A stretch of DNA of 64,000 nucleotides from Bryum argenteum (lineage: Eukaryota > Streptophyta > Bryopsida > Bryales > Bryaceae), in the NCBI GenBank assembly GCA_037043015.1, contig CM073321.1, positions 9,866,001 through 9,930,000 of the forward strand, given 5' to 3'. Shown here one piece after another: positions 12,157 through 63,081 of this stretch (position 1 is its first letter; each line of letters opens with the position of its first letter). Under the pieces are notes generated by a model, which saw nothing but the letters and a program-made list of their open reading frames with translations, did not search any database and was not told the origin of the DNA. The position numbers and the translations under genes are program-made.

Positions 12157-14076
12157 TCACTTCACTTGGTGCACATTGCACAGTTGTTGGGGCTGTGGGA
12201 TTGGCTCAAGTACCTCCTTGAAGATGTGAGGATCACGCTCCAGAGCTACAATATGGCAATTCAAGGACGATCCCGCTTGAATCGTCTCACCTACACACAT
12301 TTGAACATTTAGTATTACACTTGTAAGCAAACAAAGAGAAATAAAGGAAACAGTTAACAAAATGTACGATAGAAAAAACCTGTGCCAACTCGAAAAATCA
12401 ACTACGATGTTGTTTGTTGGAGTTAAACCATGAATTAGAACCTTCATAACAAGGTCTGATTTATGTCTTAATCCTCTCCATGGTTTACCATCTACCGCTC
12501 TACACAACAAAGACTTGAAATCCACCAAGTTACATATCATATCATGCTTTCCGAGGTTGAGTTCTGGTGTGTGCGAATCATCTGCAATAACAAGTGGCTT
12601 AGGTTGTCTAGAAATGTCAAGTGCAACCGATCGTACCAATACCATTGCCTTTGACTTGTAGGTCACAAAAATAAACCGGGAAAATAGTCAATATCACAAA
12701 CTGCAGATTTCTTCTTTATGATTCGCTTGCCTTTTCCTGAAGTGCCTACTTCTCCATCTTCAACACTTTTCTGAAGTGATTGCTTAATAATGAGACTGGA
12801 GTCCAACTTAGTCCTCATAGCAAGCCCATCGGATGGACATTTATTCATTGGACAATCCATGTACCATCCACAGAGCTTGTAATGCCCCAAATTCCAATCC
12901 GCCACCATTTCAAGTATATACATGCACTCAAGATTATTCAAGTTAGTAGAAGACATGAAGGACGCTGGAAGTTTCTCTGTAGCCTTGGCAAGGACAAGAA
13001 TATGTGTATAATATCTGCAGAGCACATGGCTACAAGCATAGTTAAATTTGAGTTGTTGATTTGGTTCATGATTCCTTTTGAGGCTTTTTTCTTCCTTAAA
13101 CTTCCGAAAGAACGCGTCATCCCAAAGATAATTTCTCCACAGCTCAATGTAATTCAAAATCTCCGGACTTGGATTTGTATCTAGGGATTGTTTTGTAACT
13201 TGTTTTGTCAACTGCACACACAATAATTTTAGTGCTTAGTAAATACACAAAGAATTCTTCGAGTACGAGAAATATTTGCAACATTACAAAACGTGCTGTT
13301 GCTAAACTCTCAACACTCATAAACCATGATAAAAGGTTTAGAATGAGATTTGTATCAATAAAATACAAAGAATTGATATGGAAGTTTAAAACATGTATAT
13401 TTACGTTAGAGTTGAAATCCAAGTCAAAACTCACTCACAACCATATACATTTAATTAAATTGAGTTGACACTTTATACTGTAAAAAATACTATGCTACAC
13501 ATACACTTCAATTCTTAAAACTTGGCTTTTGAATAAGTAGACATACTTGCGCCTACCAAGTAGCCTTGTCCAAGAATTTCTCAAATATGACATTAGAAAA
13601 ACCGGATTTTGAAAAATCCTGATTGCTCGCGGCATTGGGGCGCCATGTTTTAACGTTGTAGCTACTTGATTTTAGTGTCAACATCCATTGTGGTGATAAA
13701 AATTGTGACAATAGTGACGTTTGATCTCCTCGAGGAACTGCTCGCCATCGAGGAGCTATAGGAAGTTGTTTTTTCAACTCTGAAATGGTTTTCTTACTCA
13801 TCTTCATAACTGCAGCGTTCACATAATCATGGACCGATTTCTTTGTCCAATCCTCCTTGTTAGGATACTTCTTGTAATACTTCCTTGTTTGAGAAGCAGC
13901 CTCCTCTGCAAAGTCTTACTGCAATCCAATAGAATTGCCATTCCAACAAATAAAGTCACAAATTCTAAATTCAAGTCAATTGCACGAATAAAATACCTGA
14001 TACAATACTCTATTAAGCGCCTCTACGGTCAACTTGTACCAAGTTATCTTCTTCGTGTTTATGAATGCATTATATT
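12157..14076 (-). pseudogene. 3' half of a spliced ParB/methyltransferase-like transposon gene
   Basis: Exon-like blocks on the minus strand are 14076-13997 (donor CAG|GTATTT), 13919-13553, 13212-12381 and 12290-12157, with an 89-bp intron before the last. The C-terminal part shows a KPWRGLRHK block, then a beta-strand ending in acid (NNIVVDFSS), a glycine/serine turn (AGSS), then CHIVALERDPHIF. This order fits motif I and the motif II acidic residue of a Rossmann DNA methyltransferase. I do not see a DPPY catalytic motif. A frameshift lies in a T run near 12667, and one frame problem occurs at the last intron. A second copy of the tail lies at 54244-54733. The 5' half continues at 29443-30453, beyond the hAT insertion. 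The methyltransferase assignment is inference from motif order. Confidence 0.5.
14069..14076. repeat. Left 8-bp target-site duplication of the hAT (ATTATATT)
   Basis: The eight bases directly outside the CAGGGATG end match the eight bases outside the right end (ATTATATC, 29435-29442) at 7 of 8 positions. An 8-bp duplication is the hallmark of hAT insertion. Confidence 0.85.
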
Positions 14077-14115
14077 CAGGGATGTGACAGCGTCCGGACG
14101 TCCGGACGTCCGGCA
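14077..14115. repeat. Left terminus of the hAT with tandem GTCCGGAC units
   Basis: The TIR CAGGGATGTGACAG is followed by three overlapping CGTCCGGACGTCC palindromes. The right end carries related CGGACGGACGTCCGTCC palindromes just inside its TIR (29378-29398). Such subterminal palindromes are likely transposase-binding sites. Confidence 0.7.
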
Positions 14116-14194
14116 GGGGTCCGGGGACCGTCCGTGACTTAGAGATTTTGGTCTTTTTACAAAGGGTAAATGACCATCGGGGTGCGTTCATTGG

Positions 14195-14375
14195 TCAAAC
14201 CACCCCGTCGACCGGTCCTCCAGCTCGCCGTCGGCCTGACCGACCGGTCGGCTGGCCGGCCGTCCAAAAGGGCGACCGGCGGTCGGTCCGGGGTGACCGG
14301 CCTTTGGTCCGGCCGTCGGCCTCTGCGACCGGCCGTCGGCCGCTGCGATCGGCCCTCGCCTTTGGCGACCGCCTG
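14195..14375. repeat. CGACCGGTCGG-rich array at the hAT left side
   Basis: A GC-rich run of overlapping GACCGG, CCGGTCGG and GGCCGTCGGCC words, palindromic and dense in CpG and CHG sites. Related arrays precede the RING gene (23480-23730), the zinc-protein gene (25640-25880) and the kinase gene (28990-29250), so the array marks each gene start in the element. Open frames on both strands here (Arg/Pro/Asp-rich) are by-products of the repeat. Confidence 0.7.
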
Positions 14376-14426
14376 TGGCCGGATGGCCCCCTTCAGCATC
14401 CAACGGTTTAGAAGCATTTCAACCCG

Positions 14427-16778
14427 GGGTTGTCTTATAAGACACTGTCGGACGTCAGAGAGACACGACATGTTAGACAGACATTGAGCCTCAGAATGTC
14501 TAATAGAATCTACAGAATCTTTTTTTTACCCTTGATTTACCCTGTCTACGTTGCATCCTATGTGGCTGCCACGTGGCCTGTTCAACTCAGCAATAAGGTG
14601 TGTGACTACGCCACGTAGGACTGGACTGGCGGTCGCCTCGTCTAGACCGGCGGTCGCCTCGACTGGACCGGCGGTCGCCTCGTATGGACCAGCGGTCGCC
14701 TGAGCAACCCACGATCGCCTATTAGCGACCGACGATCGCCCATGAGCGACCGACGTTTGCCCCTGGGCGACCGCCGATACAGCCGATGGGCGAAGGTCGC
14801 TGAGTGGGGCGACCGCCGATCCAAGTGATGGGCGAACGTAGCTCAAAGGGCGACCGGCGGTCTACCCTCTAAAAACAAAGGACATGAACTTTGAAGAGCT
14901 ATAACTTTTTCATTTGGACTTTGTTTTTGACGAAATCACTTGGGTTGCGTCCCAAATTAAGTCTAGTTTATGTGGTGAAAATTGCAGACCCATACAATTA
15001 AGTATGAAAAAATGGCATGCATTTTAGTGAAGGGAGTATTTGTTTTTTGGGTTTTTAAACATTTAGCATGTTTTACCATTGCAAGCCTATTATGTGACAT
15101 CAAAAAGGTTTTTGCATGATGTGTTTTAGACAAGTGTGATCTTTAGATGCATCCCACAATCTTTGTAGTTGGAAGTAGTTTGATCCAGATAATTGTAGTA
15201 TTGGCTTTGCAATGATATTTCTACGATGAAAAAAGTGAAAATATGGATGATTTTTGAAGAGATAGATCTACTTCAACCATCGTCAGATTTTGAATTTTTA
15301 TTTTAGAATGGATTCCAATTAGAGTGTTGTATTGGTGATAGAAACCTCGAGTCACTTGAAGATATATTGAAGATAAAGTATAATTTGAGTGCTAGGGATC
15401 TAGGTTTAGACTATATTAATTACTTTGTAAAATATTTGGCAGTTTTTATCATTGCAAGAATCATCTCTTCCCTCCTTTTATACACACCCCATTTCAACAA
15501 ATTTAATTAATCTCAGGTATTTAACAGAAACTACTTACCTTCCTCTTATAGTCCAAAACTTCTAATCATGTTTCATATAAAATACATAGGAAAAGTATAA
15601 ATACTACTCTCTCTCTCTGTATTTCCCTATACACCTTACACTTCCCTATGGCTCAAATAGTAGCCTTGCAATGATAAAAACTGCCAAATATTTTACAAAG
15701 TAATTAATATAGTCCAAAACTAGACCCCTTACACTCAAATTATACCTTATCTTCAATATATCTTCGAATGGATCGAGGTTTCTATCACCAATACAACACT
15801 GTAATTGGAGCCCATTCTAAAATAAAAATTCAAAATCTGACGATGGTTGAAGTAGATCTATCTCTTCAAAAATCATCCATATTTTCACTTTTTTCATCGT
15901 AGAAATATCATTGCAAAGCCAATACTACAATTATCTGGATCAAACTACTTCCAACTACAAAGATTGTGGGATGCATCTAAAGATCACACTTGTCTAAAAC
16001 ACATCATGCAAAAACCTTTTTGATGTCACATAATAGGCTTGCAATGGTAAAACATGCTAAATGTTTAAAAACCCAAAAAACAAATACTCCCTTCACTAAA
16101 ATGCATGCCATTTTTTCATACTTAATTGTATGGGTCTGCAATTTTCACCACATAAACTAGACTTAATTTGGGACCCAACCCAAGTGATTTCGTCAAAAAC
16201 AAAGTCCAAATGAAAAAGTTATGGCTCTTCAAAGTTCATGTCCTTTGTTTTTAGAGGGTAGACCGCCGGTCGCCCTTTGACCTACGTTCGCCCATCACTT
16301 GGATCGGCGGTCGCCCCACTGAGCAACGTTCGCCCATCGGCTGTATCGGCGGTTGCCCTAATAGGAGGGTTAACAATAGGCTCGCGGACACTTTGTCCTT
16401 GCCCATAAGGTTGCCTAGAAGCGGTTGCTAGGGCGACCGTCGGTCTCCCTACTGGACCGCCGGTCGCCTACGAGCGGTACCTCAGTGCGATCGGCGATCG
16501 TCGCATGTAACCGACGTTCGCCCCTATGCTACGGTCGGTCGCCTAGCAAGGTCGCCCACCCACGGTCGCCCAATGTGACATGTATTTTGATTTCCACGTC
16601 ATTATCGACCCTACGCCACGTAGGAAAATAGCTTTTTACCTCAATGTCAATCTCAACAAGTTTTTTACTATGTAATTTTTGGTACGGTCGACATTTTTGT
16701 CGATTGGACGTCTAACAGACATGTCCAATACAACAAATCAGACAGACATTCCGAAAAGTGTGTCTAATAAGACAACCC
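14427..16778. mobile_element. Foldback element with about 1-kb inverted arms
   Basis: Bases 14427-15458 and 15665-16778 are inverted copies around a 206-bp spacer. The ends read GGGTTGTCTTAT. The inner 590 bases of each arm are nearly identical, differing for example at TTGCGTCC against TTGGGTCC. The outer part contains GGTCGCC/GGCGACC repeats that vary more between arms. A related single arm lies at 48660-49187 next to a gypsy fragment. It sits just upstream of the truncated hAT transposase and may have replaced its N-terminal coding part. No transposase is encoded. Long arms suggest a foldback or long-TIR Mutator-type non-autonomous element. I could not resolve a target duplication. Confidence 0.85.
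14616..14870. repeat. GGCGGTCGCC degenerate tandem array, left foldback arm
   Basis: Repeated units of about 20-24 bases built on GACCGGCGGTCGCCTCG, GCGACCGACGATCGCC and GGGCGACCGCCGAT. The mirror array is at 16258-16560 in the other arm, and a relative is at 48660-48975. Confidence 0.7.
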
Positions 16779-19530
16779 TGTTCGAAGCTGCCATGATGAA
16801 GACTGCTGGATTTCAAAAATCCTATGCTCCACCATCTTACCATGACATTCGGACAAGGTTGTTAGGAGAAGTATAGACGGAGTTACAAAGAAAACTAGAT
16901 AGTAGACTCTCAGAGAGCCTTCGGAAGTTTGGAGGAACTTTGACCATGGATGGATGGTCATCTGTAACCAGTCGCCCTTTGGTAAATGCGATGCTCGTGA
17001 CTCAAGCTGGAGAGCTTTTTCTTGGAGCTGTGGATACTACTGGCATAGAAAAAACAGCGGTGTACATGTCAACTCTCATGTTGAAGTACATAGAACAAGT
17101 TGGACCAGAGAACATTGTTCAAGTATGCACAGACAATGCTTCTGTAATGCTCAATGCCTCAAGAATAGTCCTTGAGAAATATCCGCACATTTTCATGCAA
17201 GGGTGTGCAACAGATGCAATGGACTTGTTGTTGGAGGATTGGGGAAAGGCTGGATGGATGGCGAATACTTTGGTCATGGCGAAGAGAATGGTCAAGTTTA
17301 TCAAGAGGCGACAAATGCCCCTAGCTGTGTTTCGTAAACACGAGGCGAAATTTTGCCTACTGATGCCTGGGAAAACAAAATTTTCTAGTCAATTCATAAT
17401 GATAGATCGCTTGTTATAGGTCAAGGAATCATTGGAGCAAGTTGTTGTCGACCCTATGTTCACAGCCTATGCCTCGAAGAAGACGGTATCAGATAGAGAT
17501 AAGCTTATATTCTCCCGTAAGGTCAAGAAGGTGGTGTTGAGCGATGACTTTTGGGAGCAATGCAAAAGATTACGGGATATGGTGGCCCCCGTAGTCTACG
17601 GTCTGAGAGAATTCGACGGCAAGGCTCCTAGTACGGGCAAGGCTTGGCATATAATGCGTGATCTTGAGAGACATGTCCATACTTTGCATGCACCGCCAAT
17701 CTCATTGGAACCACTTGAGGTGGCCACCGCAAAAGAGGAGTTTTACCATCGGAAACGGCTCATGACAACTGATTTACATGGCGCGGCAGTACTTTTAACA
17801 CTAGGACTAATAAGTGTAACATATATGTTACGAGTAACATATGTGTTACGCTTATAGGGCTGAAACACACCTATCTTTTTCTTGTGCTTTGAGCCTGAAC
17901 CCTTGATGTTTCTACATCAATGGTCTGTATACATTGCCTAGCAACTATTTTGATTGAGTAGACCTTGTTGATGTGGGATATGACACACGACTTTGACCAA
18001 TCAGAACTATCCATTTAGAACCATTTCCAGAATCTCATGGCGTACTCATTTCACTCCGTATGAGTGCATCTAAAGTATGTTCTAATGGTATATTGTTGTT
18101 GTAGCTATTTTAGGCAAGTTGTTAGGAAGTGCTACACCAAAGTCTAAGTCATTTCGTGCAACCAATGAACCTCCACTACCCTATGGATAAGCGTAACTTA
18201 TATGTTACAGGTACGGTAGCAATCGGTCCTAGTGTTAAATCCGTATTTAGTACATGACCAAGAGTTAGCTGACGATCCCGATCTTACAATAGCTTGCAAG
18301 CGTGTTTTACAAAAACTATGTCCTGCGGAGGATTACGCAGACGTGGTGAGTGAATTTCTTGCGTTTTGAGTAAGGGGTCCACCATTCCATGACATGCTGG
18401 AGCCTAATACTCAAAAACTAGCTCCACATGCATGGTGGGAGTTTGAAGGTGCTTGTGCTAAGCTCCTCTCTCCAATTGCAAAGCGAATACTAGCACAGAC
18501 CGTGTCCTCGTCGGCTTACGAACGCAACTGGAGTAGCTACTCTTATGTTCACAACAAGAAACGGAATCAGTTACTACCGGGCAGAGCTGATGACTTGGTC
18601 TACATATATTCCAACTCGAAATTGCTCGCGAATGATAAGTTGAGTGAGGATGGGCACTGGTATAGAGAGAACTTGGATTTAGAGGAAGACCAAGTACATG
18701 AAAACGATGAGGAAGCTGTCGAGGACGAAACTGAGTCTGATGACAATGATATTTTTGAATTTGGTGATGAAGACGATGATATGACTTTCTTCCCCGCTTC
18801 AAATGATGAAGATGCTCCAAATGTTCAGGATGCTAATGGTGATTTTCTCGCTCATGGTGTTTCGGCGGATGATCGAGATGATGAGCAACCGTTAGCCCGG
18901 TTAATGACACAAGGCGGCATGGAAAAATCGAATAACATCCTACTTGTTCTCGCTAGTAGTTTACGGTTGGAAAAGGAGGCGATAGATGTGAAGACCACTG
19001 TGTGCAATACTAGTGCTGGCACTATGAGCTCTGATCCGGTCGCCGAGAATATCGCATCATGTAGTAAGGATGAACTATCTTCATCATGTGCTACTCCCCG
19101 CGCTTTATTTCAACCCTCTACTGCAAGGGTTACGACAACCTTGGAGAAATCCTCTATGGGTTTAGTATCCCTTTCAAGAGCCAAATATGGCAGCATCTCT
19201 AGTGACTCTGATGTACCGTTGGGCAGGTATTTAAAAAATGCCAATGTTCCTCGTACTGCCACGGGCTTACAGCACATGCTTGGCACTTCCAAGTTGCAAA
19301 TTTACATTTATGCAACGCTTCCAACTGTTCCGCCAAAAAAACCAAAGATCCCTGTTACTCTCCTCGAATTTGATACTTGGCATAAGTATGGGAATATACA
19401 ATGTCCAGAGAATAAACCCAAGATCAAAGAAGATGTTCCAAGCGATTATGAATATGATCCTACGGGGTCTAGTGGAACTGAAGTGAAGGGAGATAGCGAT
19501 AATGAGCAATCCTTTGGTCCTGAAGAGTAG
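16779..19530 (+). pseudogene. hAT transposase (DUF659 plus hAT C-terminal dimerisation region), N-truncated
   Basis: The frame begins at the foldback edge with LFEAAMMKTAGF and runs into YAPPSYHDIRTRLL. It then shows a DUF659-type RNase-H-like block (GGTLTMDGWSSVTSRPLVNA, QVCTDNASVM, EKYPHIFMQGCATDAMDLLL) and, at 18430-18640, the dimerisation block SSSAYERNWSSYSYVHNKKR followed by RADDLVYIYSN. A long acidic tail (to 19530) is unusual. Nonsense codons lie at about 16876, 17417 and 18368. A 436-bp inverted-repeat element (17799-18234) splits HGAAVLL from NPYLV; removing it with one target copy restores the frame. The BED-type N-terminus expected in many hATs is missing. The family is secure; this copy is inactive. 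Confidence 0.88.
17799..18234. mobile_element. 436-bp MITE inserted in the hAT transposase
   Basis: The left end CACTAGGACTAATAAG and the right end CTTATCC...CGGTCCTAGTG form inverted repeats including CACTAGGAC. Both carry a second inverted block around GTAACATATATGTTAC and TAACTTATATGTTAC. TTAA flanks both sides (17795-17798 and 18235-18238). The empty site rebuilt with one TTAA restores the transposase frame. The CACTA-like first bases are probably coincidence, because the duplication is TTAA (or TA), not 3 bp. There is no coding capacity. Confidence 0.85.
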
Positions 19531-19913
19531 TTGAATTTGGCATCTTTATGTAGTAAAGGTTCATAGAACTTATACTTATTATAGAAATTGTAGCTATAAT
19601 TTATTTTAGTACTTTATTGTTATACTCCAAATGCATTTGGAGATTCTATTGTCTAAATCACTACATTTAATGTGTTGAAAAATATTACATATATTTTTAC
19701 ATACTTGTCGTACGATGGTCTTCACTCTCAAGCATAGAGAAGAAATGCACATTAAATCAAAAAGATTGCAACCCTTTACTTCAAAAATAAGGCCCCATGG
19801 ATCAATGGTGGCATTTTCATCATTTTTAAAACAACATATATACAACCTAGAAAAAGCATATATATATATATAGTTATATACTTGCAACTTAAGGTCCAAC
19901 ATCCGTTCTAACT
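19531..19913. other. Convergent intergenic region
   Basis: AT-rich 380-bp gap between the 3' ends of the transposase (+) and RING (-) genes. It presumably holds both polyadenylation regions. A TATATATATATA run is at about 19859-19871. No gene is visible. Confidence 0.5.
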
Positions 19914-22900
19914 TCAAATTGAAGATCCATCCGATTGACCAATCTGAGCTATACTACGAGTACGCGGTCTTTGACTTGGACGGGCAATTCGACCGCCCTC
20001 TTCATACTCTCGATCCACGGCTGCAATTTCGCCTCTCATCTCCGCCTGCCAACTATCCTCCCCATCTTCGCCCGATTGCCTCTTCCACTTTTTGCTAGGA
20101 TCCACTTGTTTGTTACGTAAGATTTCCATGGCCTTCTCGATCTGTGCAACGACATCCTGTACAACACCTTCGAACTCATCCAATAATAGAAGTTGTGTGT
20201 CTTTTGGGTTTAAAAGACATTCTCTCCAAAATGAAATGTCGTCATCGATACGCACATCAAACTTCTTCACCGCATCCCAATATGAGACCTCCACATCTTC
20301 AAAAGAATTTTCCGGTATCGAAGTCCGGTATATTGCGGCCTCCTCCAATTTCGCAAGGACCATAGCTCTTCCAATTGGAGTATGATCGTACTTTTTATAC
20401 TCCTCACCAAAGCTGTTTGAATCGGTTATTTCGTGCCACGAACCATCTTCTCCCTTTTCTACTCTCTTTGGAAAAAATCGAAAGAAACGGTTGTGTTCGA
20501 CGCTCCAATGCCCTCCAAAATTACGACAAAACAACTCTCGTTGCTCATCACCTTCAATATTCCTCCCCCTTATCTCTATTTCGTAATCTCGTGTCATCCA
20601 AAATAACCGATCATGCTCCCCACCATATTGAATGGCTAGTTGGTGTTTTGATTCGGATGTACTCCAGTTAAGTGCATTCCCCCAATCAGAGTAGTTTAGA
20701 AATTTCTTTGGGTATTGATCCAGTGGAAGATTCCATCGGTTGAACTCGTGCCCTGGTGGCATAAGATCTCGTATGTCCATCATCTCGTAGAATCTTGTGC
20801 TAAATGGGGAGCGACATACCAGACATACCAATATTGTCATCGCATATCGGCATATGCAAGTAACATGGAAGTTATGGCCACATTGGCCCAACGTGTATGC
20901 GCCCTCTGGACCAAAATGATGTAGGCACACCGCACATTTGTCTTTAAGTATTGTGGGAGGAGGGTCGCATGTGTTGATTACAATGCGAGCTGACTCTTGT
21001 AGGTGCGATGAGAATCTACTATACGGCGCCCATTCTTCCTCTATCTCCAAAGTCCAATCAACATCAATGTTTCGCCCCATCTTAGAGTAGTTTGTACGCT
21101 CCATCATCTCTTCAATATCCCCCCAAAAAATGACCTCTACAGGGTCATATCGTTTTTTCGATCTGTTCGTACAGAACTTCTCCAATGAAGCATCTACAAC
21201 TTCACGTGATTCTTTTGATGTAGATGCAATCGATTTCAGATCTTCTTTTGCCCTCGAAACCAAGCTCCACCTATCTTGAAGTCGATGAACCCATCCCAAC
21301 CATGGTAGTATGCGTAGGTGGATTGTTGCCTCTGTAGAATCTACCGTTTTGAAGGTTTTCCGTAATGCCTCCAATTCAGCGACTGCCTCATCTCTCTCTT
21401 TACTTGTAGCCTCCAACTTGATTGAGCATGCTTTTGCTTCCTCCTCCAATTTCGCAATTGTAACATCTCTCTCCTTCTTCGCTGCCTCGAACTTCATCGC
21501 CCATGCTCGTTGTCGCTCAACCTGTGCATCATCTCTCCTTTTGTGATATCTCCAACTTCATTTCTAACGGAATTTCATCATCGTCATCATCATTTATTTC
21601 GATAATGGACTTTCCCTTATCTTCTTTACAATCCTCTCCACCATCCTCTTTAAGAGGCCCTAAATCCCTTATCTTCCCCCTATAGGTCTTTCCATTATCT
21701 TCTTCACCATCCTCTTTACAACCCGCATCATTTTGTAAAAGAAAAAGACTATCAGAAGTCCCGATAATGGTCTTCCCCTTATCTTTATTACCATCCTTTT
21801 CACCATCCTCTTTACCATCCTCTTTACCACCCGCATCACATTCTGGAACAACATGACTACATGAAGCCCCCTGAGTGTCATTCAGTGATGGAACAAACTT
21901 GTCACCTTCTTCTAAGTCTTCTAACGCATCCCTTTGGCGCATTGCTTCTTGGTACTTTGCCACATACTCGCTAGCAGGACCTTGGCCAAACAACCGCAAT
22001 TCCCTGTAAAACTCGTCAAGGGGACGTTGCGTAATTTGGTGTTGTTTCTGCAGTTTCACAATTATTAGCTCAGTCTTCACTCGGTCCTTCAGCAGAGGGT
22101 GGAATTGATTTATGATTGCCTCATAATTTATGGCAGCCTGTAGAACGTTGGGCATACTACTTGCCATAGCGTTACTCATCTCCACAAAACCAAGAGCCAT
22201 ACGAGCAAGTATTTGTGACCCCTGCTTCACGATGGTCTCTACACTAACTATGTGATTAGCCGAGGTAACTCCCCAATCATTCCCTGACAATCCTCTCTCT
22301 TTATCTACCTCATTGCACCAATCTGCCATTTTTTGTGCGGTGTTCAGCCACTCCTCCAATTTCTTTTTGCTTGGTACCGTATGCAGATACTCCTCGAAAT
22401 TTCCCACCATACCCGAATCGGGATTTATGTCATCCATGGCATCCGTTGGTGATTTGGTTTTCCGTGGCTCACTTGGCCCTCCCTCTTCTGATGTTGGTAC
22501 CGGGATTACATGAGGTTCTTCAACTACGTTTGCACCTTCGAGCCTATCAGTTATAGTTGGTTCTACGATTGGGGCATCCGTGGCAACCATATTCCTTCCA
22601 TCCTCCTGCTTTGTCGTGGTTGTTGGAGGAGAATCCTTCACCGCCGTATCATGAGTTTTCCTCCTCAAGTGCTGCAATAAGGCCTTTGTAGAGTTTGATT
22701 CTGGATCCAACATATCTGGGATCTCCTTCTGATTTCTCCCGATTTGAAGAGGAAATGCACTACTCGCCGTGAATGTGCTATTCACCTTCCGCTTCAATAT
22801 CAACTCAGCATACACCATGCTCAAAAGCGTGTAGGAAAAGTAACCTTTGCTCTTGGGACGAGTTCCAAACAATGCCACCCAAACTTCTTCAGCACAATGA

Positions 22901-23262
22901 AAAAAGTGATCGTCCTTGCATGTTTGTGGGTTGCAAGTAAATTTATTGGTATTCACTTTGTGACATTCTCGAGGCCAAAGTTTCCCAATGTGATACATCT
23001 TCACATATTTCTTGCACGTCGCCAATCTCTAGTATTTCTCCGTTTCATTGGCCCAACCGCTCTCAGCTTTGATGGCCTCATTATCCAGGATCTTGTAGTG
23101 CAACTCGTGTCTCGCTCCTTTTGGTTTCACTCTCTTTGACGATGTCTCCTGTAAAACCAACTCAGTCCCCACCAATCCTGCGTTTGTGTTTTCTGTCGCA
23201 GGTGACCTCAAGGTCTGTTCAGAATCAGCCTCCATGTTCGTGTTATCGGTATCCGTCGCCAT
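19914..23262 (-). pseudogene. RING-H2 protein with N-terminal CKKYVKMYH/KLWPR zinc motif and coiled coil
   Basis: The start is chosen at 23262 (MATDTDNTN). About 80 codons in comes TCKKYVKMYHIGKLWPRE with later C and H residues, the same motif as in the zinc-protein gene at 26039. A single TAG near 23027 interrupts it. A long hydrophilic region follows, rich in lysine/aspartate repeats (KEDGKEDG type), then a coiled coil, then a canonical RING-H2 at about 20937-20812 with spacing C-x2-C-x14-C-x-H-x2-H-x2-C-x10-C-x2-C. The last 370 residues have no family I recognise. A one-base frameshift lies near 21530. RING-H2 domains usually recruit E2 ubiquitin enzymes, so an E3 role is plausible but inferred. 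It runs toward the transposase gene and is preceded by a CGGTCG array. Confidence 0.8.
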
Positions 23263-23479
23263 GAAGAATAGGGAGTATTTAAAATACCCCGAAGATACCC
23301 CAAGTATGCAAAAATTCGATGCGGCAGCCGCAAGTATCGCGCATACTTCCCCCCGCCACCACAAATGCAGCACACGAGAAGCTAATGCCCACGGTTGTAG
23401 CCCAGTTGAGGTGGATGAATACGAGAAGAAGTGAGGGGAAATGAGGCCCCAAGGGCCATTTATCCCCTTGTTCAACCCT

Positions 23480-23735
23480 AGAGACCGGCCGCACGGACCG
23501 GTCGCTCGGCCAATCACGGCCGCGACCGATGCTAGCCGGCCAGTTCGGCCGACGGATCCTGGCTGGTCGATCCGGTCGACCGTTCGGGGCCGGCCGATCG
23601 TGGCCGGTCGTTCGCGCCGACCGATCGCAGCCGACCGCTGACTGCCGACCGATCCTGGCCGCTTGATGTTGACTAACCGATGCCGGCCGACCGATGCCGG
23701 TCGACCGATGGCGGCCGACCAATCTAGGCGGCCGC
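23480..23735. repeat. CGATCGG/CCGGTCGACCG array upstream of the RING gene
   Basis: A GC-rich run of overlapping GGCCGACCGATGCCGG, CCGGTCGACCG and related words lies about 220 bp upstream of the RING start codon. It resembles the arrays before the other cargo genes. It may be a promoter/binding array or a methylation target; the role is inferred. Confidence 0.7.
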
Positions 23736-23771
23736 TGCGGGTTTTTTTTAAGTTTTTTTCAAATTTAAAAA

Positions 23772-23802
<31 letters not shown>

Positions 23803-25500
23803 TATATATTACAAAAATCTTACAAAATTGCATAGGATCCTTTTTTATTCTTCAAAGGTTTCTGTTATTTGATTCTCAGTGATTATTACACAATGAAAAA
23901 AGAAATCCTATGTTGATTTCTGAAATGCTATATATTCTTTATTCACGGATACATTTTCACTTTAAATTTTGAGAACAAAACCATTTCCAGTCTACTCTTT
24001 AAAGTATAAATCTTCACAAATTCCTAGATGTTTCATACATGAGGCATACATTTGGGTCCAATCAGTTTCTTTCTTCATTATTTCTCTTTTGTAAATTAAT
24101 TGGCCATTGGCTTTATGAATTAAACTTTGAGCCACATGACCTTCAACAGTAACTCTATTCCAATATTGCGTAGTTGAGAATATCGATTGAAGTATCCTCA
24201 TTTTAATATAGGACACTTATTTTCGAACAGCGTCATTGGGTTAAAAATAGGCTATGAGATTGAAGATTCTATAATCCTAAATCCTATGTTGAATGTTGAA
24301 TGTTCAATATTGTACGAGTATATTTTTTGCAATAAATGTGTGATTTATTCCATGTCAATAACATCTTCATCAAAAATGATAAATACAAAATAGATTATTT
24401 TGCACATAATAACTATGCGATGTACAGTACTACAATTGTTATCCACTTAAAATATAACTTAGAACTACACCATACATACACGAGTCCAATATTTCCTTTC
24501 CACACACAATGGTGTTTGCAAAGCTTTGGAACACCAAAACTAGAATTAAAATGAAATCTATCCCAAAATCCCAAGACCCTAAACCGTAAACCCTAAACCC
24601 TATACCGTAGAGGCCTAAAGAGTAATTCATACATCCTAAACCATAAATCATAAATCCTATCTTCAAGTGATGTTATCCACGAGTTACTCTAAATGAAGAA
24701 GAGATGCCTCTTTAAAATATTATATTCTCAAAACAAACAGTAAGAGTTAATTCAGAAATTACTAGAAATTGTGAAGATTATTTTTGTAATCTCTCAAGGC
24801 TACCCTTGTGAAATTGACAAACATTTTGACTTGGGTCACTTTGGAACTCAAGTACTAAATCGTTCATGAACATATTTCCATAAAGAATTTCAAACAAAGA
24901 CTAAATTTAAACAGCTCTTAATGGACTTCAAACCTCAATATTCTAGATGTAGGTTGTAAATTTGGAATTTGGATATGCAAATTTTACCACATGCACTTTG
25001 CGGTGTAAGGAGCACCCAGTAAAAATTAATAAAATATTATTACTTTTGACTTCTTCATCTAAGCTGCCCGAAATAGGAAACCTCCACTTTGGTGGCCATG
25101 GATCTTTAGGGGTTAAGAAGGAATATTTAAACAAAAATAAATTAATGTGTACAATCAAAAACATGGTCTCTAGCTTATAATAAGAATTGGCCTCATGGCC
25201 TTCGCTTTCCTTATAGACAAGGGCAACAACTCCCAATGGCTTCACAAATGGGAAAATTGGCCCCACTATACTGATTGTTAAATGTTTTGTCAAATTCAAG
25301 CTAATAGGGCAACATAACTCAAAAAGTGAGTGAATTGGCTTAGAGATTTGTTGGCCTTCACTCCTCTTATAAAGAATCCCTTATTATAGATTTATTTAAA
25401 GCCGTGCGTACCTTTGTCATAAAACATTCCCGTTTATGACAAAAAGATATTCTCGACATTCCCTTGTCAGAACATTCCCTGTCCATATTGAGACGCCACG
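23736..25500. other. AT-rich spacer between the two gene pairs of the hAT
   Basis: Starts with long T and A homopolymers (23741-23810). It includes two minus-strand open frames with protein-like composition: 24216-23992, containing TQYWNRVTVEGHVAQSLIHK, and 25299-24943, containing LTPKDPWPPKWRFPISG. I recognise no family in either. A telomere-like patch is at 24575-24605. If two elements were fused, the lost internal ends should lie here, but I see no CAGGGATG-type end. Confidence 0.4.
24575..24650. repeat. Short interstitial telomere-like CCCTAAA repeat, degenerate
   Basis: Contains ACCCTAAACCGTAAACCC and TAAACCCTATACCG, imperfect copies of the plant-type CCCTAAA telomere unit, followed by more decayed CCTAAACC words. 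Only two or three units are exact, so chance or low-complexity origin is possible. Confidence 0.4.
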
Positions 25501-25639
25501 TGGACTATACAGGCTAAAAATAGTACTATTTAAATTGCAAATATGTAATGCAGAGAAGTGATCGAAATTGTGGAAACGAGGAGAGTTGGGGAGATGCAAG
25601 TAGAGGAGGGGGAAGGGTGGTACGGGGGAAGAGAGGTAC

Positions 25640-25885
25640 GCCTGGCCGGTCGCCGGTAGCCGGACGCCGGCCCAGTCGCACGACCGGTCGCCGGTCGCTA
25701 GGCCGGTCGGCCGACCGGTCGCCGCTCCCTCGGATCGGTCGGCCGCCATCGGCGGCCCCGACCGACCGATTGGTCGTGCGACCCCGATCGGTCGTACGTC
25801 CATCCAGGCCGCTGGACCGGCGATTTGACCGCTGCCGTTCGGGATCGGACGGTCAGTGCCAGCTAGCCAATGGCGTCCGATACCC
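25640..25885. repeat. CCGGTCGCC/CGACCGGTCG array upstream of the zinc-protein gene
   Basis: Dense overlapping GGCCGGTCGCCGG, CGACCGGTCGCCG and CGGTCGGCCG words end about 150 bp before the start codon at 26039. It is the same class of array as at the other three gene starts of the hAT. Confidence 0.7.
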
Positions 25886-26038
25886 GGTCGGCAGAAATAG
25901 GAGGGGAGGGGCTCATTCTCCCTCACTCTGGTAAACGGGCTGTACATTGTCGCTTTTTTTAAAGCTGCATCGACTGCGTTACTCAGAGTCCGCGTGGGTC
26001 ACCCACGCCCTTACTGTGCATACTTGTCGCTGCTAGAA

Positions 26039-27196
26039 ATGGCGCCGAAGTTTTCACGTTCGAGGGGTGAGGCCAAGTCTCCACGACCAAAGGGCGACCC
26101 TCCAAAAATGGATTGGGAAGCATGGAGTGACCCAAACTGTGTTGCAGAGCCGGGTTGGCGAGAGGAGAGGGCAGATATTTGGAATTGCACCATGTGCAAG
26201 AAGTACGTGAAGATGTATCACATAATGAAGTTATGGCCGCGTCACGAAGCAGAGAAATATGGTCCTTGTCGTGAAGGCCCAGTGAACAGTTGCAAGAGCA
26301 AATATTTTGCGCACAGATATCATAAAGTCACAATGGCGGTTGGAATCAAGAACACCAGGCCAGAACTGATGCTGTATTCTACCATGGCCATGGTCTGGAC
26401 TGAAGTAGTCCTTCACAAGGACATTGACTGGACCACTGTGATAGGTTTGAACGTGCATTTATTGGATCGCAGCAACTGATTCATTCCAACAAATTGGATG
26501 GGACCAAGCGATTGTTATACTACTTATTGAGGACGTTCAGCTGATATGGATGCCCAACTTCAACAACATGGAACTCCAAGGGCATATGGGGGCACTAACC
26601 AAGACTCAAACCATGATGATCGTCAAGCACCAGTATCCTTTGGCACAGGAAGTGAGGGGTATTACCATGGTAACCACCAATTCAGTACTCCTGTGAGTTA
26701 TATGCCACCCCATCAGCAAAACACGTAAAGAGTCGAACGCGAATACGGTAGAGGTGGATCTAGTTCGAACTACCCATCTCCAATGTATACAGGAGGTACA
26801 CATGGTTTAGGAGGTGAGCAGGGTAGCGGATCCAATGCTCAATGCAACTCAAGCCCAACTCATTCTATAAACCCATACAATCATGGAAACCAATACGGTA
26901 TAACATTTGGAAGTCCCGAGTACCGTAGGCCATCACACCCGAAGGAAACATACGAGTATGGAGGTCAATATGATAGAAGATTAGACATTGTTGGCTACAC
27001 AAATTATGGATATGGTCAGAATGCATACGGAAGTAACGACATGCCTTCAGCACCTTTGCTATCTCTTGAGGACGAAGAGGCGAGGTACCAACGAGATCTA
27101 CAACAAGCCACACTTCTAAGTCAGCAGGAATACATTGAACAGCTTGAAGCCGAAAGAAACTTTAGGCAAACTTACTTGTTTGGAGAATCTTCTTGA
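26039..27196 (+). pseudogene. CKKYVKMYH/KLWPR zinc-motif protein with Gly/Tyr/Asn-rich tail
   Basis: Start at 26039 (MAPKFSRSRGEAKSP). Residues about 48-66 read NCTMCKKYVKMYHIMKLWPR, followed by spaced C and H residues (a PCREGP segment, SCKSKYFAHRYHK). This suggests a C2/CH zinc knuckle. The same block lies near the N-terminus of the RING protein at 23262, so the two are paralogous modules. The rest is low-complexity, rich in G, Y, N, Q and S, ending in a Glu/Gln-rich helix (QEYIEQLEAERNF). In-frame stops at 26477, 26528 and 26726 break it, each one transition away from an Arg or Gln codon. No known family is recognised. It is convergent with the kinase gene. Confidence 0.65.
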
Positions 27197-27199
27197 GGA

Positions 27200-27950
27200 C
27201 CACCTTCGTAAACATGATGATGAAGACTCGGATTAAGAATGACAAATCATCATATATAGTGTCATTATAGTGAAGGTTATGTAGTTTTTTGCAACGGATA
27301 ATGTCTACACTATTATTGCACTGCTAGGGGCCAATTTTGAGGATACAGAAATCCATATTTTGTTTATGAATGGATTATCCGATATCGGACTATATCGTTA
27401 TATATTAATATACTATGCAATTTGTTTTTTTACGGATTTTATCGCGATGTCTTTGTATTTTATACTATAAGTTCACTTGGTGGTAATAATTTCTTTTGTA
27501 TGGCTTTAAGCCTTTTTTCACTATTTACACTCTCACCTAACATATGATATGTTATTCAATTCATACAAATAAAGGCATATGTAAGAAAAGTCATATTATG
27601 CTTGACTTGACTTCAGACAAACCATTAATATCACAAGTACGCAAGGTTGATGTAATGAAGAAGTTTCACAATTCATTATATATTCTCAAATATTGTTCAT
27701 GAAGCTTTGGAGATATTTGTATTAAAGGTATTAAGTAATAAAATCAAATGACAAACAATGGAGAAGAAGTCATTCATTGGAATTATTGCAAGGTATATAA
27801 ACAAGAATGTACTTGAAGTAGCTACATATAGAAGGCATGTAATACATTTGACTACAAAAAATTTGCCTACATCTACATGAGGACTTCAATGAAGAATCTA
27901 AAAAGCTAATAAAGCCGCAAGAACTAAAACAGATGCGCAGAACTAATTTA
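27200..27950. other. Convergent AT-rich 3' region
   Basis: AT-rich DNA between the ends of the zinc-protein gene (+) and the kinase gene (-). There are several AATAAA-like words but no open frame worth calling. Confidence 0.45.
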
Positions 27951-28945
27951 CTAATCATACTTGGTGCGATACTGATCATTTGGCACCGGCCAATGGAATG
28001 ATTCCATGAAGCGGTTGACAACGTGGGTTAGCGTATACTTTGCATCAGCCACCATCTCCAAGTATTGGTCAAAAGCATTTGCCAAGTCTTGATTTGACCA
28101 CCGGTCAGGCCCCGTTGTACTTTGGCAATTCTCGTAGGCCGTCGACATGCTCTTTTTGAGGATTCGTTGTGCTATCCGTGCCGTAGCAAACTCCTCCAAA
28201 GCGCAATCAAAAAGGGGAATAACGTCAATGTCATCACTCCGTTTGTACAAGTACGCCACCCCAGGATCCACCCAATATCGTGCTTGTAGAGTATCAATTC
28301 TCTATTGGGGTTTGTGAACGTGTACAAGGACCTCATTTTATCATCCATGCTCGTGCTTAGCCCCCAATTGCATACTCCAATATACACTCGTGATTCATCT
28401 TGAGGGAAGTGAAGAAGTATGTTGTCTGGAGACACATCGTTGTGGAGGTAGTTCAACCGCTGGACTTGACACATGATATGCACTAAAGTCCAAGCAAGCT
28501 CTGTTTGTTTCTTGCGAAACCAGACCAACTGCCAAGCTCGAATACGCTCATCATCAGAATGAGGTGTGAGTTCGATCTCTCCATTAACATCATCTCCATA
28601 TCTTGCACCAAGGGCCAACATCAATCAAATCGTGCCACCATTCCACCAGTACGTATAGCCTTGGAACTTATTTGCATGAATGGCTATATAACGAATAACA
28701 CCTGCATATTGTATCCTCACAGCAAACGCCTCATTCTGATGCTCCACCTTGACCAAGTCTGGTCGTGTCACAGCATGGTTGGGAGTCTTTGCAGCAAATT
28801 CCCAAAACTCTTCAATGGCCACAACCCCTCTTATATGAACTTTGGAAATTGTGCCGTATCCTCCCTTTAGAGTCCTCTTCTCAAGTTCGATGGTACAGGC
28901 CGCGACAGGAATTACTATCAAATTATTCATGCGACCCAGCTCCAT
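27951..28945 (-). pseudogene. Divergent protein-kinase-like protein carried by the hAT
   Basis: Start at 28945 (MELGRMNNLIVIPV). A glycine-loop-like LKGGYGTISKVHI lies at about 28870-28832. The catalytic loop NYLHNDVSPDNILLHF (about 28450-28403) keeps the Asp and Asn of H-x-D-x4-N. The position of DFG reads GVCNWGLS, with Asn in place of the metal-binding Asp, so this copy or the whole lineage may be catalytically weak. A TGA lies near 28625, and a frameshift near 28270 separates the C-lobe (VDPGVAYLYKRSDDIDV onward). Its 5' side abuts the CGGTCG array and the hAT right end. The kinase fold is well supported by the loop; substrate and role are unknown. Confidence 0.7.
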
Positions 28946-28989
28946 TAACCTTCCTTGATCCGTGTGCCACCATCCTATGGAGCCGCGCC

Positions 28990-29255
28990 GGTTTTTATTA
29001 CATGAATACGGCCGATTTTCGGACGGATGCCGCCGACCGGCGCGATCGATCGGCTAACCAATCGGATGGCCGGTGCCGACCGATCGGACGGCCGACAGAG
29101 ACTGTGATCGATCGGACGGCCGACACCGACCGCGCCCCATCCGACGGCCGACCGAGACCGCGACCGATCGGACGGCCTGCGGCCGATCAGGCGACCGCTC
29201 CGACGCCGTCGACCGGTCGTTCGGCCGTGGCCGATCGGATGGTCCTGGGCCGCAC
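28990..29255. repeat. CGATCGGACGGCCG array upstream of the kinase gene
   Basis: Overlapping CCGACCGATCGGACGGCC-type units with a period of about 30 bases lie between the kinase start codon and the hAT right end. Both strands are open but repeat-derived. Confidence 0.7.
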
Positions 29256-29372
29256 ATTACAATCAAATGGTAACAACCTACACTCACAACACAATTTCAA
29301 TGGCTAAAATGCGACCTCCAATACGATCTGACGGTTAAAAAATTTACTACTGTCATAGTAATTCCGATATAC

Positions 29373-29434
29373 CCCCCCGGACGGACGTCCGTCCGACCAA
29401 AAAAACTCAAAAGACGTCCGAATTGACATCCCTA
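29373..29434. repeat. Right terminus of the hAT
   Basis: Ends TGACATCCCTA, the inverse of TAGGGATGTCA, with CGGACGGACGTCCGTCCG palindromes just inside. It matches the left end CAGGGATGTGACAG plus CGGACGTC block. Confidence 0.8.
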
Positions 29435-29442
29435 ATTATATC
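29435..29442. repeat. Right 8-bp target-site duplication of the hAT (ATTATATC)
   Basis: Seven of eight bases equal the left copy at 14069-14076. On the minus strand these bases are the first eight of a methyltransferase-gene exon, directly after a plausible AG acceptor. Confidence 0.85.
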
Positions 29443-30453
29443 CTTTTTTAGAAAATGATGATTTAAAATTTTCTACAAACTTTTGTCCTACCATATTTAC
29501 TCGATAGAGTTTGTGCACCGAGTTTGCTTTTACATAAGACTTCTCAATGCTCTGGTAAGCACAATGCACATTAGAACAGTAACTGATTATGTTCAATGAA
29601 ATACTTAGAAACTTTACAATATTATAAAGGTTAATACAATTCACATTGTATATCTAAATTTTATCAATTAATTTCATGCAATGCTGTCAACATTGTCACA
29701 AGATTTTTGAGTATTGTGCAGTCAACGATATAATACCACTTCAATTCGTTGGCATGATGCATGTCAATGATGGGACGCCATACCTGAAGCTTGTGATTGC
29801 CATCCCAAACGTGAAACATTTTCTTTAAAAAAACTTTTAGCACTAGATCTGCAAGCAATAGTTTGTCAAATTCAGCATTCCTGGTCTTTCAGTGTGCGCT
29901 CCACATAGATTCAATAGCCGGTGTAAGGTTGGCAGAATTTCCTTTGTCATCCTCCAAGGATACAGAAAATGCTCCAAAGCCTTCTATGTAGCCCTTCTTA
30001 ACAAAATGCGCCTGTAGATCCGTGATATCATCTTTGAGAGCAGGCCACATAGCTTGGAGGGACACCAATTGACAAATGGGAATAAACAACCTTGATTTAT
30101 TAACTGGATGGAACTGAAGTTGTTCTATTTTGGATATGGTGTCCACTGATTGCTCTGCTGTTCTTCGTCCTCTTGGTCTTTACAATTTCCTCTTCTTCTT
30201 GTACAACACTGTGCAATTTGCTAATTGAATCCCTAGGATTCCCTTCTCTATCATCTGACTCATCCCCTATGGTTTCATTTTGTGCCCAAGATACTAGAGC
30301 GCGATGTGTTGCTATTAGGACAACATCATATTGGAACAAACCCCTCCAACTTAAGGCCATTGAAAAGAGGAATGTTCCCAAAGCTGCACCAAGCCAAACA
30401 CACGAAACAATCAGCACCAAATGGTAGGATCCAAATGATGGAAGGAACACCAA
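29443..30453 (-). pseudogene. 5' half of the ParB/methyltransferase-like gene interrupted by the hAT
   Basis: On the minus strand an acidic/basic segment (30290-30110, EEEEIVKTKRTKNS) leads by frameshift or intron into 30146-29664. That part reads DTISKIEQLQFHPVNKSRLF, then MWPALKDDITDLQAHFVKKG, then KMFHVWDGNHKLQVWRP. The DGNH-(K/R) turn (29790-29804) followed by a hydrophobic helix resembles motif II of ParB/sulfiredoxin-like domains (DGxHR). One TGA lies at 29888, one transition from CGA. ParB-like domains fused to DNA methyltransferases are known in bacteria and phages, and the same order would hold here once the hAT is removed. The ParB call is inference from one motif. Confidence 0.4.
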
Positions 30454-42329: not shown

Positions 42330-45300
42330 TATCTGATGAATCGCCAAGGAGGTGGTCTGATTCCTCCTCGTCAACGTCCGTTGCTACCAGCTCTCCTACG
42401 TGCATGTCTACAAGAGACCCTTGTAGTACAAAGTCCTCCACCTCCGTAGATTCTGTTCTAGAGCTGTCTATGTTATTGGAATGTGATGAAACCGGGCGGT
42501 TGGTGTCTAAAAAGACATTGTCCTGTTCGATAGCAAATGTGCGACCTCCACGGCTGCCTCAAACTTCAACCTTGCACACCACTTTCCGCAGCCCGTCATC
42601 CACTAGAAAAGAAACTTGCAACACATGAATGGGGAACGCAAAAGACGTCGGACCCAAAGGTACTTTGTTGTGATCTGCAAAATTCACGGAAAGAAACCCA
42701 TGCTGGTCCTGCTTCATTGTTGCAGCAACACCTCCTATTCTTCCTTTAATCCATGAACAGACAAGGACTACAACGCACGTGCGCTTGTAGTCTAATTCGA
42801 GTATTTTTTCAACATGGCCCACGTACTCCTCCGTATCTGCCCCTGCATCGTTGGTGAGATTGCGTGTACGCCACTATCCATAGTGGCGCTTGAAGCTTCA
42901 AGTGAGCGGCAACGGAAGTGCATGCCATAAGCCTTCATTGACCGATAAGATGTCGCATTCAGCAAGGGAGGCCTAGACAAATCAATTGTTGTTTGGTCAA
43001 TGTGACGCGAGTCATCTGGACGGTCGCTGTCGACCGCGACTGTCAGCCAATCTGGAAATGGCTCCAAAGCTCTTAACTCCGTCGGCATGTCAGAAGGCTT
43101 TTGTCGCCTACGCCTAGGTCTTCGGCGATTTCTTGCACGGTGTAGTGTGGTCTTTGACTTCTGCTCTACCTCGTACGCCCTAGATTGTGCATTTAGCATT
43201 AGTGGTGTGTGCAATCAAAAACAGTAGTCAACAAGCTGCGGCATAAGAGTAGATGGGAAATGTGTACAGAGTGACACGTTGCTATGCGTTTTAACGCGTT
43301 GTAACGCATTCTAACGTGGATTTTGTTGACGTCTATGTCACCTAATGTTCACGATGACATAAAATTATGTTTACGAACGTTAATGGAAACGATACAAATT
43401 CAAGAGCGGGTTTGACGACAGAACTTGGCACCTTCTGTAGTGTTGTAGCGTGGCTGAATTTGTCACTACAAAATTGTGAATCCAATCACGTAGAGTGCGG
43501 AACATGTGTCGCCTTATTCCCTTGCCCTCCACCATTTCGTCGTGCATTGCCTGATCTTTGTTTGAATCCCACACTCTTCGCGACGTAGCGCCATAACGTT
43601 CCATATACTCTAAACAGAATCCAAGTGTTTCTTCCTTGGAATATGCCTCTGCCATGCAACCCTCAGGCCTAGCGTAGGAACGCACATAATCCTTAAGGGT
43701 CTTCATATAGTGCTCCATTGGGTACATCCACCGGCTTTGAACAGGGCCGCATAGGAAGAGCTCCTCCATGAGATGCACAAGAAGGTGCGTCATTATCACT
43801 AGTGATTCTAGAGGGAACTCAATCTCAATCATACAAAGCGTCTCGGAAGCGTCCTCGACATACTCTTATTCCTTAGACGCGTGAACTCTGCGTGAGCACA
43901 GGCGTCTAAATACCCTGCTGACCCTCATGATACAAGTTCGGACATCTTCATTCATGTCGACATTCCGTAGTGACACAGGCAGTATCTGCAAATGCAAGTG
44001 AAACATGATTAGTTTGCAATTTACATGGAACTCAGTAATTCTAACAGCAAAGTAATGCAAGGTAAAAGTGAGTTTACAATACCTGCTGCATGAGGATGTG
44101 AAAGTCGTGGGATTTAAGAAACCTCAGTCTACCTTCAGAAACCCTTTTGTAAATTGCTCCAGCATAATTTTGTGGCACCTTTATTGATCCTATCACGCCA
44201 AGCATGTCCGTCTTTGCCCTGGGACTGAGAACATACGGTGCATGGGGCATGAATAGTTGACCATCTGTGCGATGTGTTTGTCTCAACCACAGGTCAGACC
44301 TCACTCCCATATCTTTGAGGTCCATCCGTCCTTGTGGAAAATCAGTCTCTCCAAACAAAGTCTTTATTATATTTTCACTCAAGTTTTTCTCACAATGCAT
44401 GACGTCCAGTGTATGTCTGATGAGCAAGTCCTGCAGCTCATTAGAACACCTTAGATGTAAATATCGCAAAATGTGTCAAAACAAATGTAAGTTGAAAATG
44501 ACTTTGCGGATTGAAGTTTTTGTCGATTAATTCACTTTTACCTTACTTTTACGTTACTATGCGTCTGTCATGACACCGCTGAACAGTAATTAACATTACT
44601 TGACTTACTTCGTGTTAATTTGGACGCTTGTTACCAGAGTTGTACTTTTCGATGCGTTTCGAGTGAAATTGTGTTAACAGTGTTTGACATTCTTTTAACA
44701 GTGTTTGACATTAGTTACTTCCTGTTAACATGGACGGTGGTTAACAAAGTGGTATATGCGTTTTGAGTGACACTTGGTTAACATGTTTTATTGCTACGCA
44801 CCCTTTATCGTTTTGCACTGTTTGACATGATTTGATGTTACACAACGTTTCCTTAGACGAGTTGTAAATTAGTTTACATACCTTCCAATACGAAAGCGAG
44901 AAGAGCACAGATAATCTCTTCACTCCGTGAGTCCTCATAGGATCGCGTGGACCATCCGCCCTTCCTCCTGACGCAAGATAACTGTTTCTTTCTTCTGCGA
45001 AGCGCAGAACATCTTCGCCAGTAATCCTCGAACGGGAAACCCCTTTCTCTTCAAGCCCGTTGAAGCGGAGATCTGTGCGGAACACATGGAAATCTGGAAG
45101 ACGTTGGCGTGCTCCTACATACACTATTTTGTCTTTCTTGGGGCCTCTGGCACTTCTGGAAACAAAGGTAGGATCGCATATGGGGCAAGCTTTGTAGCCC
45201 TTAGCCGGAAAATCAGAAATAGTCCATAAAAGAATGCCACGAAGAGTAAATCTCCGATCTTTGTCATGTGCTGAAGCATCTATGGCTGGTATGCCTTTCC

Positions 45301-61539: not shown

Positions 61540-62275
61540 AGGTTATGGGCCCACTACTTTTGTAGTGAGGTTGAGTTTGAGTACTTTTGAAGGCTTGGAG
61601 AGGTCAAGGAGGTGTTGCATGCACATATAGGGCTCATTTGCACTACTTGGAGTCTCTTGGAGATTTGGAGGTGCACTTGGAGTCATTCGGAGGTGTTTGC
61701 AACCATTTTGAAGGAGGTTTGCAGCATTGGAGGCAATAGAAGCAATGTGGAGGTGTTGGAGGTGACTCAAACACTTGAAAGATTGTATGCTTGTTGTTTG
61801 AGTCTTCCTTGTACATTGAAGGTGCTCCTTTGCATTAAGGGCTCTCAAATCCATTGTTTGAAGTGTTTTGACCTTAGGAGTGTGTGTTGTAATGTTTACT
61901 TGAGTGCACTTGGAGTTGAGAGGGCCGAATCTAGCATTTGGAGTGCATATGTGCACACATAGGGCTGATTTTAGCATTTGAGGTGCAAAAAGTAGGTGTT
62001 TTGAGACTCCTAAGCTTAGATTTGAGTGATTTGTGGATCTAGAAGCTCTGTTGACATAGTTTGAGAGTTGATCTAGTGTAAAGAGTGCACAAGTGCTCAT
62101 TTGCATGCATTGAGGGCTGATTTGAGTGCTTTGAAGTGCAACCACACCTTGAGTGTGTGTAAGAGATCTAGATATTCTATTTGGAGGTCAAATAGCTTGA
62201 AGAAGATCAAATTTAAGTAGGAGCAAGTGTATCTTGCTTGTTTGAGTGTTGTAGGGGCAACATTGGAGCTTCGCC
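61540..62275 (+). other. Low-complexity untranslated leader of the copia element
   Basis: Rich in repeated TTGGAGGTG, TTTGAGTG and AGGGCTGATTT words. A minus-strand frame (62145-61543) is open for 200 codons, but it is a shadow of the repeats. It separates the LTR from the gag start. Confidence 0.55.
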
Positions 62276-62983: not shown

Positions 62984-63081
62984 AACAACAAGAAGGAGAA
63001 GGAGAGTGCCAACGTTGCAAGCAACCACGACAACGAGACGGATTGTGCGTTTCTAAGCGTCGTTGTTGCAAGCGATAGGAG

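Follow-up and report, generated by a model that had tools for sequence, protein, structure and literature searches.

A decayed four-gene hAT transposon in Bryum argenteum whose accessory genes very probably serve the element

hAT transposons are usually regarded as one-gene elements, so what are a RING-H2 gene, a zinc-domain gene and a kinase-like gene doing beside a hAT transposase? This question is raised by a 15.4-kb element at positions 14077-29434 of a 64,000-nucleotide stretch of the Bryum argenteum genome (C1:9866001-9930000; the whole stretch is hereafter called the window), for which a preliminary description had proposed a hAT transposase with three other genes as cargo. Searches of the genome (258.8 Mb, 25 contigs) demonstrated that the four-gene element enters its target sites whole, flanked by 8-bp duplications, and is present in multiple copies, which belong to two subfamilies, A and B. 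The element in the window is one copy, now decayed, of a DNA transposon that spans 18-20 kb and has four genes, and we consider it very probable that the accessory genes serve the element itself.

Short terminal inverted repeats (TIRs) beginning C/TAGGG are typical of the hAT superfamily. The window copy starts with CAGGGATGT and ends with ACATCCCTA (29426-29434), and its flanks, ATTATATT at 14069-14076 and ATTATATC at 29435-29442, are identical in 7 of 8 bases; these ends, together with the CCGGACGTCCG subterminal block, are present as first described. TIRs of the C/TAGGG type were found in both subfamilies (CAGGGATGT in A copies and CAGGGTTGTCA in B copies). Within the window, CCGGACGTCCG-like subterminal motifs occurred 29 times against 5.05 expected, and the 9-base TIR motif, with at most one mismatch, was not above chance (27 against 25.47 expected). 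A chance origin of the ends is nevertheless excluded because both ends recur in the genome (40 candidate places were scored for each) and because the joined flanks have matches at other loci. We examined 23 copies, which were picked through gene or end matches and are not a random sample. The flanking 8-mers of the 15 copies scorable at both ends matched in 8 of 8 bases in nine, in 7 of 8 in four (the window copy included) and in 6 of 8 in two, which is the 8-bp target-site duplication expected of a hAT element. Among the other eight, one matched over the 6 bases available and seven had one end cut or outside the sequence available. Copy E6 (C4:25861213-25879378, 18,166 bp) has an exact GTCTTCTT duplication and an open transposase frame of 973 codons.

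The preliminary description had suggested a search for an empty site equal to the flanks joined with one 8-mer, and related unoccupied sites exist. A genome search with the joined flanks gave 12 matches, nine of which are contiguous across the junction and 80-88% identical (the other three are the window's own flanks, twice, and a short fragment). Where the window has ATTATATT and ATTATATC on either side of the element, a single ATCATATT was found in all six unoccupied relatives that were fetched. The window copy was thus inserted into a repeat that has unoccupied copies, which demonstrates that the whole 15.4 kb arrived as one unit. A second case of insertion in a repeat was observed for a copy at C1:40.35-40.37 Mb, whose unoccupied relative lies at 61862-62258 of the window.

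The order transposase (forward), RING-H2 (reverse), zinc-domain (forward), kinase-like (reverse) recurs at many loci and in subfamily B, so the same ends and gene set that the preliminary description had reported are found elsewhere in the genome. Protein searches gave lists of at least 150 transposase, 150 zinc, 150 kinase-like and 79 RING matches. For 67 of the 150 listed transposase matches, a zinc match of like orientation lies no more than 20 kb downstream; the upstream control gave 3 and the opposite strand 4. Likewise, 83 of the 150 listed zinc matches had a kinase-like match within 6 kb in the expected orientation, and none had one in the wrong orientation. At least one other gene was in place for 66 of the 79 listed RING matches (all three for 21), while 3 of the 79 had a neighbour gene in the wrong orientation. 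Co-occurrence of the accessory genes with the transposase is therefore not confined to a single locus.

The transposase itself is of hAT type, as had been proposed. Both DUF659 and the dimerisation domain were found in the window copy (DUF659, 1.5e-30; Dimer_Tnp_hAT, 1.1e-10) and in E6 (4.1e-33 and 2.2e-11) by Pfam search. Similarity to Hermes is weak (E 0.062); the last Glu of the putative DDE triad aligns with that of Hermes, and the placement of the two Asp motifs is a judgement by eye. Inspection by eye also pointed to a BED-like N-terminus (CxxC...LSH) in the transposases of both subfamilies, which gave no Pfam match to zf-BED (E up to 1). We dropped the idea of a split transposase, in which the zinc protein would lend a BED finger in trans, because the A and B transposases both keep this N-terminus.

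Subfamily B provides a comparison across a long divergence. Its copy E25 (C1:39932360-39952894, 20,535 bp), with TIRs CAGGGTTGTCA and TGACAACCCTG, has all four genes, arranged and oriented as in subfamily A. Protein identity between A and E25 is 54.5% for the transposase, 55% for the kinase-like protein, 26-56% by segment for the RING gene, and 63% and 29-32% for the N- and C-terminal parts of the zinc protein. By eye, flank bases of a further B copy of 18,892 bp match in 7 of 8 positions, and another B copy has a 7-base match adjoining both ends. A listed transposase or zinc match stands in the expected place for 30 of 54 B-type kinase-like matches, and in the wrong orientation for 5. Many B copies have equal scores and several keep open kinase-like frames of at least 509 codons, and we infer a burst of B that may be more recent than that of A.

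The ratio of non-synonymous to synonymous substitution (dN/dS) was estimated by the Nei-Gojobori method for comparisons of A copies with a single B copy, leaving out stops and gaps. It was 0.29 (95% interval 0.22-0.36) for the transposase, 0.34 (0.27-0.42) for the RING gene, 0.29 (0.18-0.42) for the kinase-like gene and 0.31 (0.19-0.47) for the C-terminal part of the zinc gene, at dS of 1.2-1.8 (undefined for the zinc N-terminal part). Values near 0.3 throughout indicate that, between the subfamilies, the constraint on the accessory genes has been much like that on the transposase; as judged from substitution patterns, purifying selection on them is shown to be comparable to that on the transposase. 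Within A the ratio is higher (transposase 0.40-0.45, RING 0.68, kinase-like 0.63-0.67, zinc 0.23-0.48), which is the expectation for dead copies. The claim of three non-transposase genes stands, and they recur between the same ends; the word cargo is misleading. To judge by their arrangement and conservation, the genes form a conserved set that belongs to the element, and they are not neutral passengers or the content of two abutting elements.

What might these proteins do? The RING signal of the window copy falls under the Pfam threshold (zf-RING_2, 1.5e-5), whereas a better copy passes it (3.3e-8, 34.1 bits against a cut-off of 27.3), and all eight C3H2C3 zinc ligands of the RING-H2 motif are kept in E1, E6, E24 and the B copy E25. 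The kinase-like protein stays under the Pfam cut-off (Pkinase, 0.074 in the window and 6.9e-5 in a better copy). Among alignment rows from 31 loci, the catalytic Asp is present in 25 of 27, the Asp of DxG in 22 of 24 and the Asn in all 25 that could be compared. The RING and zinc proteins have an N-terminal Cys/His domain in common (30% identity for the window pair), which in the RING gene is 66% identical between A and B. No viral relative of the kinase-like protein or of the transposase was confirmed when viral contigs were scanned with these two, and a Pfam search listed no match of the accessory proteins to a VANC family. On the DNA side, blocks rich in CGACCG/CGGTCG (CG-rich blocks) occupy five equivalent positions in E6 and E25, namely the left end, the 5' side of the RING gene, the middle of the centre, the 5' side of the zinc gene and the right end, and each of the four genes begins adjoining such a block.

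Genes that each begin by a repeat block recall the VANDAL transposons of Arabidopsis, where short motifs within tandemly repeated non-coding DNA of the element are bound by VANC proteins, which bring about a loss of methylation (PMC10398659), and we propose by this analogy that the Cys/His domain reads the blocks. The transposase would carry out cut-and-paste transposition, and the RING and zinc proteins may bind the element's own CGACCG-rich blocks through their common domain. The RING-H2 part would then ubiquitinate proteins at the blocks, and the kinase-like protein would phosphorylate or regulate proteins there. The targets would most likely be host silencing factors, such that the element stays expressible. 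Taken alone, this anti-silencing step is a serious prospect of somewhat less than even probability. The full proposal, of a hAT lineage with a self-targeted effector system that is independent of VANC and in which Cys/His proteins read CGACCG blocks while an E3 ligase and a kinase-like partner disable or remove the silencing machinery on the element's own copies, is one that we advance tentatively.

Several observations weigh against this reading or against its parts. The position of the VAIK lysine is Arg in 27 of 28 kinase-like rows, and kinase activity is thus uncertain. Neither Pfam nor PDB gave a substantial match to the Cys/His domain, so DNA binding by it is a guess. The A-B estimates of dN/dS rest on one B copy with dS near saturation, and two within-A intervals exceed 1 (kinase-like E24-E1, 0.40-1.25; zinc N-terminal part E1-E24, 0.21-1.25). 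The flanks of E25, one full B copy, agree in only 3 of 8 bases. Finally, 62 transposase, 43 kinase-like and 36 zinc matches are unchained among those listed, and no neighbour gene is listed for 14 of the 40 left ends or for 11 of the 41 right ends. The transposase N-terminus is nevertheless encoded at 28 of 30 left-end loci (the exceptions are the window copy and L044) and the kinase-like N-terminus at 27 of 30 right-end loci (the exceptions are L015, L032 and L035), so unlisted neighbours do not prove true absence; partial and decayed copies surely exist.

The main rival holds that the accessory proteins act in transposition (in end recognition, integration or control of transposase activity) and not against silencing. 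Ordinary hATs are not known to need helpers for their movement, and in both subfamilies the transposase has retained a BED-like N-terminus of its own; both points speak against such a role. Tol1 and Tol2 are likewise described as elements of 4.4 kb and 4.7 kb that encode the transposase (PMC10175614). In favour of it, CG-rich blocks stand at both ends of the element too, and mudrB of maize Mutator-like elements (MULEs) is reported to be apparently needed for integration (PMC6446971). We regard this role as rather unlikely, though it comes closest to the reading of an element that counters its own silencing.

The remaining explanations fare far worse. The preliminary description had suggested an element that may modify host regulation. 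RING and kinase-like domains are of a regulatory type, which would suit a mobile module that alters such regulation to the host's benefit; the high copy number, the extensive decay and the fixed gene set instead resemble the biology of an element, and service to the host is very improbable. Even smaller is the chance that the genes are functionless passengers of host origin: gene capture is common among plant transposons and all four genes of the window copy are broken, yet the same three genes occur in the same order in two subfamilies, with A-B dN/dS well below 1. Least credible of all are two side-by-side elements (a transposase/RING half and a zinc/kinase half), since, although the genes of each half converge, with a CG-rich block on either outer side of that half, and chains with only one half occur among the matches listed, the unoccupied sites span the whole insertion, the duplications match at its outer ends, the central stretch matches almost end to end in 34 of the 40 places scored for it (the window among them), no perfect TIR motif was found inside, where separate TIRs of the halves had been envisaged within 23.7-25.5 kb, none of 40 left ends had a right end within 9 kb among the matches listed, and no half with its own TIRs and duplication was seen among them. 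An ancient fusion of two elements may lie behind the arrangement.

To our knowledge, no hAT transposon with such a conserved gene set has been described. The present family is like the hATs Ac, Hermes and Tol1/Tol2 in its C/TAGGG TIRs, 8-bp duplications and DUF659 and Dimer_Tnp_hAT domains, and unlike them in its length of 18-20 kb and its three conserved accessory genes. Searches of an open-access library listed no paper that, by title or opening of the abstract, describes a hAT combining several genes, RING and kinase-like ones among them; repeat databases were not searched, and an entry may exist there. VANDAL elements are also multi-gene plant DNA transposons with repeated short non-coding motifs (PMC10398659) and a function like the one proposed here; they have a Mutator-like transposase in place of a hAT transposase, and the likeness is one of function and not of descent. 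MuDR-type MULEs with mudrB similarly have a conserved accessory gene beside the transposase (PMC6446971), but this is a single extra gene of another kind and the transposase is that of Mutator. Starships and Teratorn are large multi-gene mobile units as well. However, Starships occur in few copies of 27-393 kb with variable cargo and Teratorn is a 180-kb fusion of piggyBac and a herpesvirus (PMC10175614 for both), in contrast to the fixed gene set and high copy number of the hAT family described here. A RING zinc-finger motif has been reported in a giant Gypsy-like retroelement of planarians (PMC6431247). A hAT family of this size and copy number, with three accessory genes that are fixed and selected, would mean that helper systems arose in the hAT superfamily too, as in VANDAL and MuDR, and the presence of two diverged subfamilies in one genome would allow tests of co-evolution between the proteins and the CG-rich blocks, and of whether ubiquitination and phosphorylation are means by which plant transposons counteract or adjust silencing.

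The damage to the window copy was mapped against E6. All four genes have stops or frame breaks, and three deletions were found (~837 bp, ~3.5 kb in the centre and ~0.7 kb). The left end (14077-14422, forward strand) comprises the TIR and a CG-rich subterminal block and is followed by a nested foldback element (14423-16779; arms 14765-15458 and 15665-16358, 97% complementary), which replaces the ~837 bp of hAT element, including the transposase N-terminus. The foldback arms are 694 nt each, the outer ends of the foldback element resemble the start of the B-subfamily TIR (CAGGGTTGTC), and its outer part has many relatives in the genome. The broken transposase gene continues on the forward strand as a DUF659 part (16780-17798) and a C-terminal part with Dimer_Tnp_hAT (18235-19530), which are separated by a 436-bp insertion with short inverted ends adjoining TTAA (17799-18234) that may be of piggyBac-like type. 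The RING-H2 gene (19914-23262, reverse strand) has one in-frame stop and one frame break, and a CG-rich block lies on its 5' side (23480-23735). Beyond the non-coding centre (23736-25420, ~3.5 kb shorter than in E6), a second such block (25640-25900) lies on the 5' side of the zinc-domain gene (26039-27236, forward strand), whose frame is broken. The kinase-like gene (27951-29014, reverse strand) also has one in-frame stop and one frame break and lost its N-terminus to the ~0.7-kb deletion, and the right end (29019-29434) comprises a CG-rich block and the TIR. Rfam at gathering thresholds gave no match in 13900-29600.

The ~5-kb centre of E6 is internally duplicated, and no long conserved reading frame that would indicate a fifth gene was seen in the centre. 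Its order differs between A and B (E6, 8.2-13.3 kb, L069/L070; E25, L071/L072; window, 23790-25420). Parts of it are 71-86% identical between the subfamilies, and one 41-bp piece is 93% identical, despite near-saturated silent sites in the genes; this similarity may reflect either constraint or exchange.

Contig C1 (44.1 of 258.8 Mb, 17%) is enriched in matches to the family: of the 150 matches listed for each protein it has 105 for the transposase, 109 for the zinc protein and 107 for the kinase-like protein, and of the 79 listed for the RING protein it has 50, compared with 24 of 54 for the B-type kinase-like protein. C1 might be a sex chromosome or one otherwise low in recombination. Elsewhere in the window, a CACTA-type transposase (Transposase_21, 4e-53) and Copia-type Pol domains (Pol_BBD, gag_pre-integrs) were detected at 44744-45715 and 63079-63912.

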